DNA of 28,229 nucleotides, from positions 1-28,229 of IMG/VR virus record IMGVR_UViG_3300028287_000023. The stretch is one strand, 5' to 3'. Positions 10,312-24,842 of the stretch are shown one piece after another (within the stretch, counting starts at the first letter, position 1; each line of letters starts with the position of its first letter). This DNA is from a virus. The notes under the pieces are model-generated. The model was not told the origin of the DNA, searched no databases, and saw nothing but the letters and a program-made list of their open reading frames with translations. A program made the position numbers and the translations under genes.

Positions 10312-11787
10312 ATGGCACTGAATCCCTATTTTCTTCAAGGTTCATCTGGTGAACAGAGTCTTGTACAAGACTTAGTGAATGAACAATTAAAAATGTATGG
10401 AATAGAGGTTTACTATATTCCAAGAAAACTATTAAAAACTGATGATATACTGAATGAAGTTCAGTCTTCAAAATTTGATACAAGTTTCGTAATTGAGGCA
10501 TATTTAAATAATTATGATGGGTATGCTCCTGATAGTGATATCATGACCAAATTTGGTCTAAGACTTAAAAATGAAATAACTTTAGTTCTTTCAAAAGAAA
10601 GATTTGAAGAATCAATTTCACCATACTTAGCAGAAATTGCCTCAATATCTAGAATATATTATCCAGGAGAAGACCTAGCATTTGTTGATAGACCAAAAGA
10701 AGGAGATTTAGTTTATTTTCCTTTAGGAGAAAGATTTTTTGAAATTAAAAGAGTTGAAGTAGAAAAACCATTTTATCAATTAGGTAGAAATTATGTTTAT
10801 GAATTATCATGTGAACTCTTCGAATATGAAGATGAGGAAATTGATACCGGAATTCCAGAAATAGATGATGTTCTAGAAGATGTTGGTTATATTACTGATT
10901 TGAAATTGGTTGCCTTCGGTGGAACTGCAGAATGCGATTCAATACTTGTTCCAGGTTTTTCAGGTGTTACTAATGTTGTTCTACTAAATGATGGATACAA
11001 TTATACAGGAATACCAACAGTAACAATAAGTCCTCCAGGTCTTGGATCTCCACTTTTTGCAGATGTGGATGTTAGTACCATTACAGGTGCCATAGGAGTT
11101 GATGAATTTTCTTTGACAGCTACCGCAGTTGCAATAACTACATCAGTCGGAGATGCAATATCAATTAAAGAGATAGTCATTACAAATACTGGATATGGAT
11201 ACACTGAACCTCCTACTATAACTATTGCTGGAGGAAATGGTTCTGGTGCAATTGCAACTTGCATTATATCCGAAAGTCCAATTCTTAAGATTGAAGTTAC
11301 AGATAAGGGTGATAGATATTATCAAGCACCAACTATAACAATAGATCCACCAGTCGGTGGAGGAACAACAGCAACGGCAATCTCTAGAATTTTCAATGGA
11401 AGAGTTTCGGAAGTACTGTTAACAAATGCAGGTTCTGGATATACTTCTAAACCAAATATCACAGTTTCTCCACCACCTACAGTTGGAATTGGAACCTTTA
11501 TTGTGTCCGAAACAGTCACTGGATCTCTTTCGGGAGTTACTGCAGAAGTCAAATCTTGGACTAATCCGGGACAAGACATTGATAAGATTTTGAGAGTTTC
11601 ACTAAATAGTGGAACATTTAGTGAAGGAGAAAATATAGTTGGATCTTCTTCCTCCGCAATTTACACTTTAAAGTCATATGACACAGATACTTCATCAAGT
11701 GATCAATATTCAGATAATGATGAATTTGAGGTAGAAGCAGACAAAATATTAGACTTTACAGAAACAAATCCATTTGGTACATATTAA
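10312..11787 (+). CDS. 14: Neck protein gp14 with C-terminal GxGY-repeat extension
   Basis: Residues 1 to about 195 are the gp14 neck domain, including 'LVNEQLKMYGIEVYYIPRK', 'FGLRLKNEITLVLSKERFEE', 'PKEGDLVYFPLGERFFEIK' and 'QLGRNYVYELSCELFEYEDE'. gp14 acts with gp13 at the head-tail joint. At 491 residues the protein is nearly twice T4 gp14 (256). The extra half is a run of beta modules with GYNYTGIPTVTI (about 229), GYGYTEPPTITI (about 294), DRYYQAPTITI (about 333) and GSGYTSKPNITV (about 373), followed by two 'SGVTAEV'-type modules. The extension could form neck decorations or whisker-like projections, given that no wac gene is seen; this is inference. Its stop overlaps the gp15 ATG (TAATG). 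Confidence 0.88.
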   Translation: MALNPYFLQGSSGEQSLVQDLVNEQLKMYGIEVYYIPRKLLKTDDILNEVQSSKFDTSFVIEAYLNNYDGYAPDSDIMTKFGLRLKNEITLVLSKERFEESISPYLAEIASISRIYYPGEDLAFVDRPKEGDLVYFPLGERFFEIKRVEVEKPFYQLGRNYVYELSCELFEYEDEEIDTGIPEIDDVLEDVGYITDLKLVAFGGTAECDSILVPGFSGVTNVVLLNDGYNYTGIPTVTISPPGLGSPLFADVDVSTITGAIGVDEFSLTATAVAITTSVGDAISIKEIVITNTGYGYTEPPTITIAGGNGSGAIATCIISESPILKIEVTDKGDRYYQAPTITIDPPVGGGTTATAISRIFNGRVSEVLLTNAGSGYTSKPNITVSPPPTVGIGTFIVSETVTGSLSGVTAEVKSWTNPGQDIDKILRVSLNSGTFSEGENIVGSSSSAIYTLKSYDTDTSSSDQYSDNDEFEVEADKILDFTETNPFGTY

Positions 11788-12593: not shown

Positions 12594-13010
12594 ATGAATA
12601 ATTATGATTCAATCGATGAGGCTCTGAATATTGAGAGTGATATTGTCGAGTCAAAACCAATCAAAAAACCAGAGATTATAAAATCGAAAGATGATGATAT
12701 AGAGAAAGATTATATCTATAGTCGTGCGAACCTCTACTCCCTCATAGAGAAGGGTCAGGAGGCAATCAATGGCATTATGGAGGTAGCAGGGGAAGGAGGC
12801 AGTCCAAGGGCATATGAGGTCGCAGGGCAGTTGATTAAGAGTGTTGCTGATACTACTGATAAGTTAATTGATTTACAAAAGAAACTTAAGGATGTAGAGG
12901 ACGAAACTAAGAGAACTACAAACAATGTTACCAATAATGCAGTGTTTGTTGGATCGACATCAGAACTTCAAAAAATGCTTAAGCAAGGTTTTCTAAATAA
13001 TAAAGAATAG
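12594..13010 (+). CDS. 16: Small terminase subunit gp16
   Basis: A 138-residue protein whose core, 'SLIEKGQEAINGIMEVAGEG', 'GSPRAYEVAGQLIKSVADTT' and 'DKLIDLQKKLKDVEDE', is the paired-helix coiled-coil oligomerisation region of T4 gp16. gp16 forms a ring that regulates the ATPase and nuclease of gp17 and helps start packaging. The N-terminal 45 residues are acidic and probably disordered. The C-terminus has 'NNAVFVGSTSELQKML', typical of the family. In most T4-like phages gp17 follows at once; here a 554-aa gene intervenes. The stretch around 12725-12840 is clearly richer in G and purines than its surroundings. Confidence 0.9.
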   Translation: MNNYDSIDEALNIESDIVESKPIKKPEIIKSKDDDIEKDYIYSRANLYSLIEKGQEAINGIMEVAGEGGSPRAYEVAGQLIKSVADTTDKLIDLQKKLKDVEDETKRTTNNVTNNAVFVGSTSELQKMLKQGFLNNKE

Positions 13011-13015
13011 ACTAC

Positions 13016-13031
13016 TTTTCATCGATGAAAA
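13016..13031. repeat. Perfect 16-bp palindrome over a start codon
   Basis: TTTTCATCGATGAAAA reads the same on both strands and contains the ATG (13025-13027) of the 554-aa gene. As RNA it can fold as a 6-bp stem with a UCGA loop, placing part of the start codon in the stem. No Shine-Dalgarno-like motif is visible ahead of this ATG. Confidence 0.7.
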
Positions 13032-14689
13032 AGTGTAAGCAAGGATATTATTATTGTTATACGGATGAGGTTTGTAAACCTATTCCGAAGGGTTTAAGAG
13101 TAACCGCTAGATTTTCTGGTGGAGGAAAGGAACCAGAAGAAACTGGTATCGATGTTCCTACAAATGGTAATGGGGATGGAAACGGTAATGGTAATGGTGG
13201 GGATGGAGGAGGTGTAAGTGAATCGAAAAGTGGTGATAAGTCTTTGAGTGACTGGTTTGGCAAGAGTAGGTCTAGTGATGGCAAGCCTGGTTGGGTTCAA
13301 TTGGGTGGCAAATATGCCGGAAAACCCTGCGCCAAACAACCAGGACAAACCACAAAACCAAAATGCGGATCCAGCAGAATGGCCGCAAATTTAGATGATA
13401 AGGAAGAGAAAAAAGCATTTAATAGAAAGCAACGTCAAGATCCAGATCCAGATAGAAAAGGGAAGGCAATCAACGTGAAGACAGAAGAAACTGTAGTAGA
13501 AAAAGCAGGCGAAAAAGATGCCTGTTATAAGAAGGTCAAGAGTAGATATAGTGTTTGGCCTTCTGCATATGCATCCGGAGCACTTGTAAAATGTCGTAAA
13601 AAAGGTGCTGCTAACTGGGGAAATAAGTCAGAGTCTGTAGAGTATTCTGATTGGAGAGATGACTTTAAAGCAACCGAATATGAATTCGTTGATATTATCA
13701 AAGCAGAACCTATTAAGGGTGGACAAGAACAAATTGATGAAAATGTTTCATCTGGAAAATCACGTCTAGCTAAAATGGGTAGGGTTAAAGGAAAACCTAC
13801 TGGACCTATTACTAATGCCGAAAAATCTGCAGAGTTACAAAAACAAAAAGATACTGTAAAGGCAAAGGACAGAGAATCTGCAAGTAAGGTAGATGTATCA
13901 GGGTTAAGTCCTGCTGATGCATTAATGAAGAAAAGGCAAGCCGAATTTAAGGCAGAAAAGGCAAGATTAAAAGCACAAAAAAATATGAGAAGAGAAGAGA
14001 CCGAATCACTTGGTGAAGGACAAAAGTGTTGGAAAGGATATGAGAAGAAAGGAACCAAAAAGATGTTTGGTAAAGTTGTAAACAATTGTGTAAAGAAAGA
14101 AGGGTATGATGTTGGTGATGTTGATCAAAAAGTTGGTGCCGTAACTCCTATTCCTAAGAGTGAACAGGATGCTGCCAGAGCAAGATTACTTGCTAAGGCA
14201 AAAGCAAAACGTGAAAAAATGAAAGAAGAAAAAGAAGAATCAAAAATCGACGGTAGCAATCTAAAAAAACTTGCCGCAAAAGCAGTAAGAAGAGTCGATG
14301 CCGATGTGGATGGTGATGTAGATACTGATGATATGAAGTCCTCAGAGACTGGTGAGTTTGTTCCTTCACCTGATGGTAAGAAACTAAAACCAAAGGTAAG
14401 ATTTGAAGGTGCTTCCGATTGGAGAAATGAACTTGGAGAAGGTGCTGCCTGGACTAAAAAGTCAGGTAAGAGTAAATCTGGAGGACTAAATGAAAAAGGT
14501 CGTAAGTCTTATGAAAGAGAAAATCCTGGTTCTGACCTGAAAGCACCATCTAAAAAGAAAGGTAACAAAAGAAGAGCATCATTCTGTGCGAGAATGAAAG
14601 GAATGAAAAAGAAATTAACTTCTGCTAAAACTGCAAGAGATCCAGATAGTAGAATCAATAAGTCCCTTAGAGCATGGAACTGTAATTAA
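13025..14689 (+). CDS. Modular Lys/Cys-rich protein between the terminase genes, DUF6321-like C-terminus (554 aa)
   Basis: Function unknown. Distinct modules can be read. Residues 1-25: 'GYYYCYTDEVCKPIPKG' with C4, C11 and C17. Residues 45-65: a Gly/Asn/Asp spacer. Residues 74-120: 'KPGWVQLGGKYAGKPCAKQP' and KPKCGSSRMA. Residues 164-202: 'DACYKKVKSRYSVWPSAYAS' then CRKKGAANWGNKS. Residues 207-230: YSDWRDDF..EYEFVDIIK. About 296-320: a charged helix. Residues 334-358: 'CWKGYEKKGTKKMFGK' with C335 and C355. Residues 425-436: the EF-hand-like loop DADVDGDVDTDD. Residues 463-470: a second SDWR motif. Residues 485-553: GGLNEKGRKSYE, 'RRASFCARMKGMKKKLTSAK' and DPDSRINKSLRAWNC, which I recognise as the DUF6321-type domain found in phages. 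There is no enzyme motif, signal peptide or membrane segment. Strong basic charge suggests nucleic-acid contact; a packaging or internal-virion role is inferred from position only. Confidence 0.8.
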   Translation: MKKCKQGYYYCYTDEVCKPIPKGLRVTARFSGGGKEPEETGIDVPTNGNGDGNGNGNGGDGGGVSESKSGDKSLSDWFGKSRSSDGKPGWVQLGGKYAGKPCAKQPGQTTKPKCGSSRMAANLDDKEEKKAFNRKQRQDPDPDRKGKAINVKTEETVVEKAGEKDACYKKVKSRYSVWPSAYASGALVKCRKKGAANWGNKSESVEYSDWRDDFKATEYEFVDIIKAEPIKGGQEQIDENVSSGKSRLAKMGRVKGKPTGPITNAEKSAELQKQKDTVKAKDRESASKVDVSGLSPADALMKKRQAEFKAEKARLKAQKNMRREETESLGEGQKCWKGYEKKGTKKMFGKVVNNCVKKEGYDVGDVDQKVGAVTPIPKSEQDAARARLLAKAKAKREKMKEEKEESKIDGSNLKKLAAKAVRRVDADVDGDVDTDDMKSSETGEFVPSPDGKKLKPKVRFEGASDWRNELGEGAAWTKKSGKSKSGGLNEKGRKSYERENPGSDLKAPSKKKGNKRRASFCARMKGMKKKLTSAKTARDPDSRINKSLRAWNCN

Positions 14690-14697
14690 ATTTTGTT

Positions 14698-16344
14698 ATG
14701 AGTGACGTATATCTTGGTAATCCATTATTAAAAAAAGCAAATACTCCGATTGAGTTTACAGAAGAACAAATTATTGAGTTCCTCAAATGTAAACAAGATC
14801 CAATTTATTTTGCAAATAACTACATTAAAATTGTTTCTCTTGATGAAGGTCTAACACAGTTTCATCCATATCATTTTCAAGAGAAATTAATTCATAATTT
14901 TCACAATAACAGATTTAATATCTGTAAGATGCCACGACAGACTGGTAAGTCTACTACTGTGGTATCATATCTCTTACACTATGCACTTTTTAATGATAGT
15001 GTAAACATTGGTATTCTGGCAAACAAAGCATCTACTGCTAGAGAATTGCTAGGAAGATTATCAACCGCATACGAAAACTTGCCAAAATGGATGCAACAAG
15101 GTATCCTAGTGTGGAACAAAGGAAACATCGAGTTAGAAAATGGCAGTAAGATATTGGCATCTTCTACATCTGCGAGTGCTGTCCGAGGCATGTCGTTCAA
15201 TATCCTCTTTCTCGACGAATTCGCATTCGTCCCGAATCATGTTGCTGACTCCTTCTTTGCATCTGTTTATCCTACTATTACTTCTGGCAAAAGCACAAAG
15301 GTAATTATTGTATCCACACCACATGGTATGAATCACTTCTACCGTATGTGGCATGATGCGGAAAGAAATAAAAACGAATATATTCCTACAGAAGTTCATT
15401 GGTCAGAAGTTCCTGGTAGAGATGTAGTTTGGAAAGAACAAACAATTGCAAACACATCAGAAGAACAATTTCGGGTTGAGTTTGAGTGCGAGTTCTTAGG
15501 TTCTGTCAATACTCTTATAAACCCATCAAAACTCAAAACTTTAATATATGATGATCCAATACAGAGAAATGCTGGATTGGATGTCTATGAAAATCCAATT
15601 CCAGAACACAATTATCTAATTACGGTTGACGTTGCTCGTGGTCTTGGTAATGATTACTCCGCATTTATTGTCTTTGATATCACAGAGTTTCCTTATAAGG
15701 TAGTTGCAAAGTATAGAAATAATGAAATTAAACCAATGTTATTTCCAAATATCATATTTGATGTGGCAAAGGGATATAATTATTCTTGGTTATTGATAGA
15801 GGTTAATGATATTGGTGATCAGGTTGCTAGTATTCTCCAGTATGATTTGGAATATGAAAATATTCTTATGTGTGCTATGAGAGGTCGTAATGGTCAAGTT
15901 GTTGGATCAGGATTCAGTGGTAAGAAATCTCAACTTGGAGTTCGTACAACTTCAGCAGTTAAAAAATTAGGATGTTCAAATCTTAAAACTCTTGTAGAAG
16001 ATGATAAATTACTTGCGTCTGATTATGAAATTATATCAGAACTTACCACTTTTTCGCAAAAAGGAAACTCTTTCGAAGCAGAAGAAGGATGTAATGACGA
16101 TTTGGCAATGTGTCTTGTAATATTCTCTTGGTTAGTAGCACAAGAGTATTTCAAGGAGATGACAGAGAATGATGTAAGAAAAAGAATATACGAGGAACAG
16201 AAAAATCAAATTGACCAGGACATGGCACCATTTGGATTTATTGAGGATGGAATTAATAGTGAAGCAAGTTTTGTAGATGATTCTGGAGATAGATGGTATG
16301 CAGATGAATATGGTGATATGTCCTATATGTGGGATTATAAGTAG
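14698..16344 (+). CDS. 17: Terminase large subunit gp17 (packaging ATPase/nuclease)
   Basis: This motor protein docks on the portal, pumps DNA with ATP and cuts the concatemer. The ATPase half has the Walker A motif MPRQTGKST (78-86, K84), Walker B NILFLDE (D173, E174) and the coupling segment 'IIVSTPHGMNHFYRMW' (about 204-219). The RNase H-fold nuclease half has 'YLITVDVARGLGNDYSAFIV' with D311, LLIEVND with E368, and GCNDDLAM with D467/D468, matching the three acidic metal ligands of T4 gp17. At 548 residues it is shorter than T4 gp17 (610), mainly at the termini, as in other cyanophages. All catalytic residues I can check are intact. The stop shares one base with the next GTG start. Confidence 0.95.
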   Translation: MSDVYLGNPLLKKANTPIEFTEEQIIEFLKCKQDPIYFANNYIKIVSLDEGLTQFHPYHFQEKLIHNFHNNRFNICKMPRQTGKSTTVVSYLLHYALFNDSVNIGILANKASTARELLGRLSTAYENLPKWMQQGILVWNKGNIELENGSKILASSTSASAVRGMSFNILFLDEFAFVPNHVADSFFASVYPTITSGKSTKVIIVSTPHGMNHFYRMWHDAERNKNEYIPTEVHWSEVPGRDVVWKEQTIANTSEEQFRVEFECEFLGSVNTLINPSKLKTLIYDDPIQRNAGLDVYENPIPEHNYLITVDVARGLGNDYSAFIVFDITEFPYKVVAKYRNNEIKPMLFPNIIFDVAKGYNYSWLLIEVNDIGDQVASILQYDLEYENILMCAMRGRNGQVVGSGFSGKKSQLGVRTTSAVKKLGCSNLKTLVEDDKLLASDYEIISELTTFSQKGNSFEAEEGCNDDLAMCLVIFSWLVAQEYFKEMTENDVRKRIYEEQKNQIDQDMAPFGFIEDGINSEASFVDDSGDRWYADEYGDMSYMWDYK

Positions 16345-16565
16345 TGTCTTTTGATGATGAGATCGAATTAGAACATTTATTATTCTTTGATCGCAAATGT
16401 AGAGTTTGTGGAAAGATTAAAAGTTTGATGGATGATTTTTATCTCACTCGAAAAGGTAGAAAAACATTACCATCTGCATATTCATATGAATGTAAGGATT
16501 GTACGGTTAAAAGAGTAAGTAAAGGTAGAAAGAGCAATTTAAGATGGGAATATCCTGATTGGTAA
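16344..16565 (+). CDS. Small zinc-ribbon-like protein (73 aa, GTG start)
   Basis: Two Cys-x2-Cys pairs, CRVCGK near residue 19 and CKDC near residue 50, are separated by about 27 residues including a basic 'RKGRKTLPSAYSYE' stretch, the layout of a structural zinc ribbon. The C-terminus is basic (VKRVSKGRKSNLRWEYPDW). No HNH or other catalytic motif follows, so it is unlikely to be a homing endonuclease. Small CxxC proteins of this type are common next to gp17 in cyanophages; function unknown. The GTG at 16344 uses the last base of the gp17 stop, and no ATG in frame gives the first Cys pair with a comparable overlap. Confidence 0.7.
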   Translation: MSFDDEIELEHLLFFDRKCRVCGKIKSLMDDFYLTRKGRKTLPSAYSYECKDCTVKRVSKGRKSNLRWEYPDW

Positions 16566-21166: not shown

Positions 21167-21334
21167 ATGGAAGAAATTGTAAATTTAATTGGATCCGACT
21201 CTTCGGCATCTGATATTAGTGACAGAATCAAAGATGTTTTGTATGCAAAAGCAGCAGGACATATTGATAATGCTCGTCCAGTAGTTGGAGCATCTATGTT
21301 TGGTGACGAATCACAATCAGAGGATCAAGAATAA
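21167..21334 (+). CDS. 67: Prohead core protein, gp67-like (55 aa)
   Basis: ATG at 21167 opens a 55-codon frame ending in TAA at 21332-21334. The protein begins MEEIVNLIGSDSSASDISD, continues RIKDVLYAKAAGHIDNARP, has VVGASMFGD, and ends in an acidic tail (DESQSEDQE). T4 has gp67, a small acidic prohead core protein, at exactly this place between gp20 and gp21, and cyanophages carry similar 'SASDISDxIKxxLxxKAxxxID' proteins here. gp67 is part of the scaffold core and is digested by gp21. The name rests on position, size and composition, since T4 gp67 itself (80 aa) is hard to align. The stop overlaps the next ATG (TAATG). Confidence 0.65.
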   Translation: MEEIVNLIGSDSSASDISDRIKDVLYAKAAGHIDNARPVVGASMFGDESQSEDQE

Positions 21335-21594
21335 TGGGATATATTCGTCATGACGAAAATAATAACCCAGAACCAGGTGTATCTACTGTTTTCTCCTCTT
21401 CATATCTTGGAGGCACTACCGGTTGGTCAACTGTCACCTATGAAAATTTTAATGTAGATTATCAGGCTCGTAATGCAGATAATAGTCCAAGAACTCCTGG
21501 AACATATCAACGTCACGATGAAAATAATAATCCAGTTGGTGTAGGAACATATCAACGTCACGATGAAAATAACAATCCCGTAACATCTCCATAG
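21334..21594 (+). CDS. Tandem 15-residue repeat protein between gp67-like and gp21 (86 aa)
   Basis: Function unknown. The C-terminal half is three tandem 15-residue units starting YQARNADNSP (43-57), YQRHDENNNPVGVGT (58-72) and YQRHDENNNPVTSP (73-86). A fourth copy, YIRHDENNNPEPGVS, sits at residues 3-17. Between them is a Ser/Thr/Gly-rich stretch (residues 18-42). There is no predicted helix-rich scaffold character, no signal and no catalytic motif; the composition suggests a disordered or beta-turn chain. It starts in overlap with the gp67-like gene and ends 12 bases before gp21, so it sits where T4 has gp68, a prohead core protein. It may be an internal head or decoration peptide; this is inference. 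Confidence 0.65.
   Translation: MGYIRHDENNNPEPGVSTVFSSSYLGGTTGWSTVTYENFNVDYQARNADNSPRTPGTYQRHDENNNPVGVGTYQRHDENNNPVTSP
21499..21572 (+). repeat. Direct repeat, 29 bp identical at 45-bp period
   Basis: The same 29 bases, beginning GGAACATATCAACGTCACGA, occur at 21499-21527 and 21544-21572, 45 bases apart. The period equals 15 codons, so unit gain or loss keeps the frame. A diverged related unit lies at 21340-21369. Confidence 0.85.
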
Positions 21595-21606: not shown

Positions 21607-22257
21607 ATGAAACTCATCACAGAAGAAATTTCAAACGTAAAGATTATTACCGAAGGTAAAGGTTCTAATAAGAAACTTTATATTGAAGGTGTTTTCCTTC
21701 AAGCAGACCTCGAAAATCGTAATAAAAGAATGTATCCTATGGAGACTCTTTCTCGTGAAGTAAAAAGATATAATGAAGCATTCGTCCAAAAGGGACGTGC
21801 TCTCGGAGAACTTGGTCATCCCGATGGACCTACCGTAAATCTTGACCGTGTTTCTCATAAGATTACTTCACTCACTCAAGAGGGTAGTAATTTTAGAGGT
21901 AAAGCACAAATCCTTAATACTCCTATGGGCAAAATTGCATCTTCACTTTTAGATGAAGGTGTGATGCTTGGAGTTTCTTCTCGTGGTGTTGGTTCATTAA
22001 AAGAAGATCGTGGTGGAGTGAAAGTTGTTGGTGAAGATTTCATGTTAGCAACTGCTGCTGATATCGTTGCCGATCCTTCTGCACCTGATGCATTTGTATC
22101 AGGAATTATGGAAGGAAAAGAGTGGATTTGGGAAGGAGGAATTCTTCGTGAACAACTTGCAGAAAGAACTCAGAAGAGAATTAACACTCTTGTTGACCAA
22201 AGAATTCTCGATGAACATAAGTTAAACTTGTTCAACGAATTCTTATCAAATCTTTAA
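21607..22257 (+). CDS. 21: Prohead core protease gp21
   Basis: The serine protease that digests the scaffold and trims capsid proteins after prohead assembly. At 216 residues it matches T4 gp21 (212). Key segments are 'YIEGVFLQADLENRNKRMYP', 'GRALGELGHPDGPTVNLDRV' with candidate catalytic H71 (and H84), and LGVSSRGVGS with candidate nucleophile S124/S125, followed by 'ATAADIVADPSAPDAFVSGI'. This His..Ser layout is that of the gp21/herpesvirus-type prohead protease group. It lies directly before its main substrates gp22 and gp23. The start follows 'AAGATAAAG', a weak ribosome site. Confidence 0.93.
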   Translation: MKLITEEISNVKIITEGKGSNKKLYIEGVFLQADLENRNKRMYPMETLSREVKRYNEAFVQKGRALGELGHPDGPTVNLDRVSHKITSLTQEGSNFRGKAQILNTPMGKIASSLLDEGVMLGVSSRGVGSLKEDRGGVKVVGEDFMLATAADIVADPSAPDAFVSGIMEGKEWIWEGGILREQLAERTQKRINTLVDQRILDEHKLNLFNEFLSNL

Positions 22258-23471: not shown

Positions 23472-24842
23472 ATGCAAGGTTTCAATGCTGAATACCTTCA
23501 GGAGAAGTGGGCACCTATCCTCAACCACGAGGGTCTCGGAGGCATCAATGATGCTCATAAGAGAATGGTTACCGCAGTTCTTCTGGAGAATCAAGAAAGA
23601 ACAATTAGAGAGGAAAAAGAATTCCTTTCTGAAGCACCTACCAACTCCGTTGGAGACGGAACTGGTATTAAAAACTTCGATCCCGTTCTGATCTCATTGA
23701 TCAGACGCGCAATGCCTAACCTGGTCGCATATGACCTCGCAGGTGTTCAACCGATGAACGGTCCTACTGGACTGATCTTCGCAATGCGTTCCCGTTTCAC
23801 GAATCAAAGTGGTGCAGAAGCACTCTTCGACGAAGCAAATACCGGATTCTCTAACAGTGGAATCGGAAGTGCTACTCCATATGTTACTGGTCAGGAAGCA
23901 AACGTTGGTTTAGGAACCACTGGAAATCAGAGTGGATCTAATCCAGGACTTCTGAGCCCAACTGCTCAAACCCAAACCGGATATAACGTCGGTCAGGGCA
24001 TGGATACTGCATTCTCCGAGGATCTCGGAGATGGTCAGGCATTCAATGAGATGGCATTCTCGATTGAGAAAGTCACCGTTACTGCTAAGTCCCGTGCTCT
24101 GAAAGCAGAGTATTCTCTGGAACTGGCACAAGACCTCAAGGCTATTCATGGTTTGAATGCCGAGGCAGAACTTGCCAACATTCTCTCCACTGAAATCCTT
24201 GCGGAAATCAACAGAGAAGTCATCAGAACCATCTATAAGGTTGCAGAACCCGGTGCTCAACAGAATGTTGCCACCCCTGGTACTTTCGACCTTGACGTTG
24301 ACTCTAATGGTCGTTGGTCTGTTGAGAAGTTCAAAGGTCTTATTTTCCAAATCGAGAGAGATGCGAACGCAATCGCACAAAGAACTCGTAGAGGAAAGGG
24401 CAACATGATTCTGTGTTCCGCAGACGTTGCTTCCGCACTGACCATGGCTGGTGTACTTGATTACACCCCTGCACTCAATGCAAACCTGAACGTTGATGAC
24501 ACTGGTAACACCTTCGCAGGTGTTCTTGCTGGTAAGTATAAGGTCTATATCGATCCTTATTCTGCAAACCTTCCTAACCCATCTGGTGCTCAGTACTATG
24601 TTGCTGGTTATAAAGGTTCTTCACCTTATGACGCAGGTCTGTTCTATTGCCCTTACGTTCCTCTTCAGATGGTTCGTGCAGTTGGAGAGAACACTTTCCA
24701 GCCTAAGATCGGCTTTAAGACTCGTTACGGTATTGTTGCCAACCCCTTCGCAGAAGGTGCTGCTCCTGTTACCAATCCTGGTAGACTGCAGACTAACACA
24801 AACCGTTACTACAGAAGAGTCAAGGTTCAAAACCTCATGTGA
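23472..24842 (+). CDS. 23: Major capsid protein gp23
   Basis: HK97-fold capsid protein, 456 residues. Clear T4-like landmarks are 'EKWAPILNHEGLGGINDAHK', LLENQE, 'LISLIRRAMPNLVAYDLAGV' followed by QPMNGPTGLIFAMRSRF, 'GQAFNEMAFSIEKVTVTAKS' followed by RALKAEYSLELAQDL, 'VIRTIYKVAEPGAQ' and the C-terminal 'IGFKTRYGIVANPFAEG'. FLSE-APTN at residues 51-58 looks like the gp21 cleavage site (E54/A55), matching FLTE-AEIG in T4, so mature capsid protein would be about 402 residues. The gene is visibly richer in C-ending codons and G+C than its neighbours, usual for a highly expressed protein. No gp24 vertex gene follows; a terminator does. Confidence 0.97.
   Translation: MQGFNAEYLQEKWAPILNHEGLGGINDAHKRMVTAVLLENQERTIREEKEFLSEAPTNSVGDGTGIKNFDPVLISLIRRAMPNLVAYDLAGVQPMNGPTGLIFAMRSRFTNQSGAEALFDEANTGFSNSGIGSATPYVTGQEANVGLGTTGNQSGSNPGLLSPTAQTQTGYNVGQGMDTAFSEDLGDGQAFNEMAFSIEKVTVTAKSRALKAEYSLELAQDLKAIHGLNAEAELANILSTEILAEINREVIRTIYKVAEPGAQQNVATPGTFDLDVDSNGRWSVEKFKGLIFQIERDANAIAQRTRRGKGNMILCSADVASALTMAGVLDYTPALNANLNVDDTGNTFAGVLAGKYKVYIDPYSANLPNPSGAQYYVAGYKGSSPYDAGLFYCPYVPLQMVRAVGENTFQPKIGFKTRYGIVANPFAEGAAPVTNPGRLQTNTNRYYRRVKVQNLM

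Follow-up and report, generated by a model that had tools for sequence, protein, structure and literature searches.

What does a 554-amino-acid (aa) protein do between the two subunit genes of a phage terminase? In T4, genes 16 and 17 are adjacent. In the 28,229-base IMG/VR fragment IMGVR_UViG_3300028287_000023 (hereafter the window, the whole stretch analysed), an intact open reading frame (ORF; 13025-14689, plus strand) with an ATG start and without an internal stop separates them, lying 14 bases after the end of gp16 and 8 bases before the start of gp17. The window phage is a cyanomyovirus close to Synechococcus phage S-SKS1, its nearest named relative (94.2% identical at the DNA level across 92% of 18,230 searched bases). 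The family of the 554-aa protein is already known (T4-GC119 / phrog_727), with its function unassigned. The reading favoured here, with modest confidence, is that the gene product is a packaged internal-head polyprotein, cut by the prohead protease gp21 into DNA-binding microproteins. The protein is built of modules, the modules are reused in other proteins, three of them occur elsewhere as separate, coupled small genes, and motifs of the gp21 type are enriched before the fused modules.

According to this proposal, the precursor would reach the prohead core either through its own signal or together with core partners, and gp21 would cut it at PhixE sites during head maturation. The freed basic modules would then bind the packaged DNA and remain as internal proteins, like those of T4, and might be ejected with the DNA. 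The cysteines could bind zinc or form disulfides.

A string of small basic modules

The features of the locus are the following, with a slash marking the position of a candidate cut:

12594..13010 (+): terminase small subunit, gp16 (PF11053, phrog_445)
13025..14689 (+): T4-GC119 / phrog_727 protein, 554 aa, net charge +43; proposed internal-head polyprotein
13034..13093 (+): module M1, CKQGYYYCYTDEVCKPIPKG, 3 Cys; hidden Markov model (HMM) matches in 37 ORFs
13241..13477 (+): module M2, SLSDWF..PGWVQ..GKPC..KPKC, with VSE/S just before it (residues 64-66); probably a divergent DUF5872-type domain
13514..13627 (+): module M3, DACY..VWPSAYASGALVKC, with VVE/K just before it (residues 157-159); a separate 47-aa gene in Roseobacter phage CRP-7
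13646..13720 (+): first SDWR segment, SDWR..DIIKAEPIKG; resembles a stretch of P-SSM2_125
13733..13741 (+): candidate gp21 site IDE/N (residues 237-239), putative cleavage
14009..14017 (+): candidate gp21 site LGE/G (residues 329-331), ahead of M4, putative cleavage
14024..14098 (+): module M4, KCWKGYEKKGTKKMFGK..NNC, detected by HMM
14102..14230 (+): stretch M5 (GDVDQKVGAVTPIPKSEQDAARARLLAKA), partly helical; recurs in S-SZBM1_194, a different protein
14297..14338 (+): acidic stretch M6, DADVDGDVDTDDMK; EF-hand-like by eye only, with putative metal binding
14414..14440 (+): second SDWR with candidate gp21 site SDWRNELGE/G, ahead of DUF6321, putative cleavage
14441..14686 (+): module M9 = DUF6321, net charge +18 (Pfam E 5.2e-22); encoded on its own in podoviruses and on many marine phage contigs
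14698..16344 (+): terminase large subunit, gp17 (Pfam, PHROGs)
21607..22257 (+): prohead protease gp21, identified by synteny with S-SKS1 and proposed as the cutter
23622..23633 (+): candidate gp21 site FLSE/APTNS of the window's own major capsid protein (a yardstick; gene named by synteny, putative cleavage)

A first-pass annotation of the window had described this protein as strongly basic and multi-modular, and that description was confirmed. The flanking genes are gp16 (PF11053, E 3.3e-8; phrog_445, E 2.4e-57) and gp17 (Terminase_6N/6C in Pfam and PHROGs). The quoted motifs were all found in their places: the Cys head at residues 4-23, PGWVQ..KPC..KPKC within 73-151, DACY..VWPSAYASG within 164-201, SDWR at 208 and 464, CWKGY..NC within 334-358, and a C-terminal DUF6321 (PF19846) at 481-551, scoring 78.7 bits, above the Pfam gathering cut-off of 28.5. 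The chain contains 125 K+R and 82 D+E (net +43, isoelectric point 9.65), all 11 cysteines lie inside modules, and the modules carry net charges of +3 to +18 while the two long linkers carry 0 and +3. The protein is a string of small basic modules with linkers that are partly disordered and partly helical.

AlphaFold gave the whole protein a mean predicted local distance difference test score (pLDDT) of 62.5 and a predicted template modelling score (pTM) of 0.29, without an overall fold. Scores of about 60-90 were obtained for M1, M4, most of M2 and the later portion of DUF6321, and residues 27-72, 147-164, nearly all of 198-256, 419-446 and 456-484 scored below 50; linker residues 378-405 were predicted to be helical. 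DUF6321 modelled alone is a predicted small helical domain (pLDDT 69.7, pTM 0.48). Comparison of both models with folds in the PDB gave no match at E<=0.001 (best E 3.8 or worse, taken as chance), PDB sequence searches with the whole protein and with a podovirus DUF6321 found no solved relative, and no relative of known function was found by sequence in the Pfam, PHROGs and PDB searches of the 554-aa protein. A Pfam match to AMOP (E 0.069) was dismissed as chance.

Modules are shuffled among phage proteins, a point that the first-pass annotation had proposed to check. Module HMMs defined 34 architectures in 97 module-bearing ORFs, a set that includes ORFs truncated at contig ends and counts the window twice (as window and as locus L006), indicating reuse and reordering. 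The DIIKxEPIKG stretch recurs in P-SSM2_125 and the GDVDQKVGAVTPIPKSE stretch in S-SZBM1_194, proteins that are otherwise different. The Pfam DUF5872 model (PF19197) matches M3 at positions 12-43 (E 0.0044, 18.0 bits, below the cut-off of 27.5) and does not match M2. However, iterated local HMMs built from DUF5872 and from M2 match many of the same ORFs, and M2 is therefore probably a divergent DUF5872-type domain, as judged from sequence.

Junctions between modules resemble prohead protease sites

T4 gp21 is described as cutting after L/I-X-E (PMC9026906). The residues ahead of fused modules vary widely yet often end in PhixE, as in LDEK-CWKGY, LGEAGKK-CWKGY, LDEG-AAWT and IEEGKK-DACY. At the nearest Glu before a module, I, L, V or M occupied P3 in 179 of 257 cases, with repeated 18-residue contexts counted once, versus 485 of 2449 other Glu outside modules in the same proteins, with repeats kept; when repeated contexts were counted once in the background as well, the figure was 374 of 1805. 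A stricter test used one sequence per 50%-identity cluster, excluded boundaries at or within 16 aa of the ORF start and made 300 shuffles. The motif [ILVM]xE was present at 92 of the 118 non-redundant boundaries (shuffle mean 40.7; a first version of the test gave 90/118 vs 40.0), and strict [IL]xE at 60 of them (shuffle mean 24.1), counts tempered by the shared ancestry of the boundary sequences and by a motif test that was formed after looking. Before modules encoded as separate genes (ORFs of 140 aa or less), the same motifs occurred at 8/141 and 1/141 boundaries, respectively. By module, the broad motif was found before M2 in 11, M3 in 17, M4 in 35 and M9 in 29 cases (shuffle maxima 8, 17, 21 and 21), so that M2, M4 and M9 exceeded the shuffle maxima. 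The strict motif gave 4/12, 11/23, 27/47 and 18/36 for the same modules (best of 300 shuffles 5, 12, 15 and 18).

In the 554-aa protein, LGE precedes both M4 and DUF6321. The second SDWR runs directly into DUF6321 as SDWRNELGE/G (SNWREELSE/G and SDWRTELDE/K in relatives), and IDE/N comes 26 residues after the first; in locus L015 (L numbers denote sampled loci) the same IDE directly precedes M4 (IDEGQK-CWKGY). The window's own capsid protein carries a similar site, FLSE/APTNS. A T4-like signal, [FYW]xx[FYW][ILVMQ]xE, was found inside chains in six distinct forms among 95 module proteins, five of which end 0-3 residues before M4. At L019:4501, L087:307 and L003:8433, an in-frame internal Met is followed at once by a targeting-like stretch and M4, as though a gene with its own start had been joined on; these three Met codons showed no clear ribosome-binding site. 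Around fused-module loci considered as candidates from outside T4-like phages (L162, L175, L173, L164, L125, L109 and L115), none of 10 scanned neighbours gave a T4 head marker.

The same junctions bear on the idea that the protein is a structural component fixed in the head, neck or capsid, a cement or connector working as one intact chain, with PhixE reflecting linker composition. The records of S-P4, S-E7 and Sf-FS3 label relatives as 'structural protein' (the basis of the label is not given) and the podovirus genes lie near capsid genes, both of which agree with such a role. A fixed part fits poorly with the variable number and order of modules, the partly disordered linkers, a junction enrichment that overall goes beyond shuffles, and the existence of the modules as separate genes elsewhere. 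We regard this explanation as quite unlikely.

Relatives in virions and head-targeting signals

The virion table published for S-CREM2 lists ORF137 with 4 unique peptides (4.1% coverage) and ORF160 with 7 (13.1%) (PMC10665884). The gene for S-CREM2 gp137 lies between gp16 and gp17, and the protein has DUF6321 at its C-terminus; gp160, encoded ~17 kb from gp17, carries M2, M4 and M3, with [IL]xE before each of them. The suggestion that this is a packaged internal protein, one of two offered by the first-pass annotation, gained ground from these two virion detections together with the prohead-protease-like junctions; the virion presence it had asked about was seen in S-CREM2 and not in S-SZBM1 (see below).

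For the T4 internal protein IPIII, targeting is reported to depend mainly on residues 4 and 7 and processing on residues 8 and 10 (PMC9026906). The 165-aa DUF6321 protein S-SZBM1_192, whose gene lies between gp16 and gp17, has the N-terminus MKTFKQYITEA. Residues 4 and 7 are aromatic, residue 8 is I and residue 10 is E, which makes this a T4-type capsid targeting sequence (CTS); L075 likewise has a CTS ahead of its DUF6321. Among 1147 ORFs of loci taken as T4-like, 25 had N-terminal CTS-like starts (2.2 expected by shuffling), and 13 of these belong to a gene of ~105 aa located directly after the DUF6321 gene.

This ~105-aa gene starts MKSFKQFLSES.. and often continues with GDFNGTLNVGG; it is found in S-SKS1 (L001:7352-7657) and after the DUF6321 gene in L011, L020, L022, L025, L029, L044, L057, L073, L074, L083, L095 and L177. 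The window has no such gene between the 554-aa ORF and gp17.

Four of the 219 S-CREM2 proteins match the CTS positions: the S-adenosylmethionine (SAM) hydrolase gp6, the kinase gp14, gp136 (encoded between gp16 and gp17) and the cytidylyltransferase gp154. All four are among the 52 virion proteins (hypergeometric p 0.003). When the processing position was restricted to I/L/V/M and the offset left free, 3/3 were in the virion list (p 0.013), and a wider pattern, chosen after the N-termini had been seen, gave 5/6 in virions vs 47/213 of the others (p 0.003). T4-type signals would explain the presence of enzymes in S-CREM2 virions, and the T4 review notes that CTSs may let T4-like phages package various proteins (PMC9026906). 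Virion enzymes with T4-type signals near the N-terminus are gp6, gp12, gp13, gp14 and gp154, a Cas9-like protein included. The virion cytidylyltransferase of S-SZBM1 has its CTS one residue earlier.

Since the CTS-bearing S-CREM2 virion proteins are mostly enzymes (gp6, gp14 and gp154), the package could also be an ejected effector whose modules act in the new host cell, by anti-restriction, takeover of nucleoid or transcription, or redox functions, in the manner of T4 IPI or Alt, with DNA condensation being incidental. T4 IPI is described as an ejected anti-restriction protein (PMC9026906), and variable module sets could fit an arms race. On the other hand, phages of cyanobacteria and Pelagibacter carry a well-conserved DUF6321, which is divergent in a Roseobacter-group phage, and scans of Pfam and PHROGs revealed no catalytic domain or known effector family. 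An effector role is unlikely, although it is the foremost of the alternatives.

Evidence against a packaged polyprotein

Several observations weigh against the packaged, gp21-cut polyprotein. Regarding virions, the S-CREM2 authors note that non-structural proteins may have co-purified (PMC10665884), and the coverage of gp137 was only 4.1%. In the published list of 30 S-SZBM1 virion proteins, S-SZBM1_192 and _194 are absent, although _190 and _195 were detected (PMC9146016). The records of Syn9 and S-SM1 mark neighbouring proteins as structural but not gp114 and SSM1_115, respectively. Small Lys-rich proteins yield few usable tryptic peptides, and because of this, absence from virion lists is weak evidence.

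Regarding targeting, the 554-aa protein itself lacks an N-terminal CTS, as judged by the key residues 4, 7, 8 and 10. CTS-like starts were also in excess in other loci, whose phage types are mostly unassigned (13/1063 vs 1.4 expected). In S-SZBM1, the CTS proteins were not enriched in virions (1/4 vs 29/214 others, p 0.45), and the two exact matches are absent from its 30 detected virion proteins.

Regarding the junctions, with the strict motif only M4 was clear of shuffling, and M3 fails with the broad motif too. The window's four module sites include two with V, rather than I or L, at P3. Separate genes have short leaders, and composition may account for part of the difference between them and the fused form. 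A strict LNE/K lies inside DUF6321 (window 14486-14497) and is invariant in 42 aligned T4-like rows, one row (L005) having been left out; it is possibly one more site, or a warning of chance motifs. The same position reads LNAK in Greip gp45 (77% identical), is Q in S-CREM2 gp137 and is A, K or R in most other separate copies, L154 having E.

Finally, M3 reached a pLDDT of only 52-67, and 'linker' residues 264-328 form confidently predicted helices. It is the charge of the modules alone that points to DNA binding. In 13 of the 31 loci in which three of the modules are separate genes, some of them on short contigs, neither a major head protein nor a terminase is nearby.

A cassette of separate genes in other marine phages

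In Roseobacter phage CRP-7, three consecutive small genes stand directly before TerL. These are gp65, DUF6321-like (E 2.8e-7, undetected by Pfam's own model); gp64, 47 aa, with the DACY module (E 3.1e-12); and gp63, 80 aa, with DUF5872 positions 49-99 (E 5.9e-6, just under the Pfam cut-off). A scan seeded with gp64 was considered for its best 80 loci (79 new ones plus CRP-7). Among these, DUF6321, DACY and DUF5872/M2 were all separate small genes in 31; the remainder had DACY and DUF5872 (19), DACY and DUF6321 (2), DACY only (6), fused modules (19) or other contents (3). The order DUF6321-DACY-DUF5872 was kept in 29 of the 31 trios, and the DACY and DUF5872 genes overlapped by 1 nt in 33 of the 50 loci with both as separate genes.

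Eighteen of the 31 trios lie near a major head protein or a terminase. A major head protein gene was located 0.9-1.6 kb upstream in 14 of them, with phrog_371 in both of those scanned, and TerL 0.15-0.93 kb downstream in four (CRP-7, L098, L099 and L101). A lone DUF6321 gene was near capsid or scaffold genes in three of five podoviruses or pelagiphages (P-SCSP1k, HTVC304P and KBS-P-1A) and was not in the other two (Greip and HTVC010P). Downstream of the cassette, phrog_3704, a ferredoxin-like phage protein, was seen at L116:5789-6475 and in 13 further trio loci. In L106 and L116, the separate DACY and DUF5872 proteins share similar C-terminal tails, e.g. RGQGAVMSNRLR or KGCGKVMNNRRK.

We consider the chances about even that T4-type marine phages turned an ancient cassette (DUF6321, DACY and DUF5872) into a shuffled polyprotein which the protease would cut in the capsid, one targeting event thereby delivering customised DNA-binding peptides, with the same signals loading a cytidylyltransferase, a SAM hydrolase, a kinase and a Cas9-like protein. 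In the literature searched, mostly without subscription papers, we found no description of the cassette of separate genes, of how it relates to the fused form, of junctions resembling protease sites or of targeting signals on virion enzymes. The search for cyanophage capsid targeting returned the T4 review alone, and that for prohead protease cleavage sites no cyanophage study by title.

Family and gene position

The protein matches phrog_727 at E 9.8e-131 in three stretches covering most of the chain, and annotated T4-GC119 homologues from S-SM2, P-RSM4, P-SSM2 and P-SSM4 (T4-GC numbers taken as written in the phage records) align with it and have overlapping module sets, all with M2 and DUF6321. 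The modules are accordingly not peculiar to this protein. Searches by tblastn at E<=1e-3 found relatives in 494 phage records with the whole protein, showing that the first observation was not a chance one, and 536 record matches with a podovirus DUF6321 protein as query. In S-SKS1, the closest relative, two ORFs in different frames take the place of the single gene, and 466 bases of the window correspond to 84. The possibility of a cellular origin was also looked at: a search returned 76 DUF6321 loci scattered over unrelated genome records, chiefly bins from metagenomes, a distribution that phage DNA placed in the wrong bins would fit. No paper on DUF6321 was found, and DUF5872 appeared in one list entry, for a protein of an algal giant virus (PMC12085832).

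In S-SM2 and S-SM1, the gene shares the gp16-gp17 interval with other genes; in P-SSM2 it is placed between gp15 and gp16, and in P-SSM4 it is elsewhere, near nrdA and a cytidylyltransferase gene. In a set of 81 loci, from IMG/VR or the window, that have a DUF6321 ORF, gp17 was at most 3 kb downstream in 58 of the 62 loci showing it and gp16 at most 3 kb upstream in 37 of the 41 showing it, shares that are biased upward, the loci having been picked by similarity to the 554-aa protein; eight of the 81 show none of gp15-18. Conservation of the position therefore stood as the usual arrangement in the sampled loci and did not extend to P-SSM4 and P-SSM2. The interval g15-g18 is a hypervariable region in published cyanophage comparisons and carries metabolic genes (PMC2984593, PMC3037559), so that a gene at this place is no oddity. 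Because of this hypervariability and the biased sample, position alone is weak evidence for a packaging role. The other suggestion of the first-pass annotation, a scaffold bringing packaging parts together, is not supported, since the gene lies in this hypervariable region and since the unrelated loci in relatives speak against a scaffold by that annotation's own criterion. The first-pass interpretation is on the whole partly supported.

Two explanations start from this position. A non-virion assembly or packaging factor, whose Cys/Lys modules would tether terminase, portal or DNA and be absent from the finished particle, agrees with the usual place between gp16 and gp17, with the cassette shortly before TerL in CRP-7, L098, L099 and L101 and with relatives that went undetected in S-SZBM1 virions, but it is very unlikely given gp137 and gp160 in the S-CREM2 virion proteome, the ~17 kb between gp160 and gp17, and the P-SSM4 locus. 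Cargo of the hypervariable region, a mobile collection of modules with no head role, would suit a region with metabolic genes; the wide distribution and good conservation of DUF6321, the proximity of the cassette to head or terminase genes in 18/31 loci, and the S-CREM2 detections make it highly improbable.

If the packaged polyprotein is correct, it would constitute an internal-head protein system for a large group of marine cyanomyoviruses, the family being present in hundreds of cyanophage records, and give a testable job to a very common gene without an assigned function. It would also help to explain enzymes in cyanomyovirus virions, which S-CREM2 supports and S-SZBM1 does not.

Other features of the window

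Three neighbouring features were recorded. A small endonuclease VII-like gene (phrog_4723) lies between gp17 and gp18 (16344-16565), a gp14-like neck protein (10312-11787) has a long C-terminal extension that resembles tail-fibre and baseplate proteins, and an 86-aa ORF with RHDENNNP repeats (21334-21594) is located between the portal and protease genes.

Comparison with known systems

The window protein belongs to the same family as T4-GC119 / phrog_727, its copy adding helical stretches and the acidic DxDxDG stretch. Its C-terminal module is DUF6321 (PF19846), and for DUF5872 (PF19197) the matches to M3 and to CRP-7 gp63 are both below the Pfam cut-off.

Among head cargo, the ejection (E) proteins of SPN3US reportedly undergo cleavage after a short xxE motif by a T4-like protease, in some of them at several positions (PMC10052503). 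They differ in the motif, A-X-E, and in that the cuts reported there remove propeptides rather than free several domains (PMC10052503). A protease-cut polyprotein that loads several DNA-binding microproteins into the head would be a new format.

The IPI, IPII and IPIII family was not among the PHROGs and Pfam matches of the 554-aa protein, no direct comparison with IP sequences having been made. T4 IPI-III and Alt are likewise basic, and the T4 proteins are targeted to the head and cut by gp21 after L/I-X-E (PMC9026906). A matching N-terminal signal is found in cyanophage relatives and not on the window copy, which differs from the T4 proteins in having several domains per chain with candidate sites between them.

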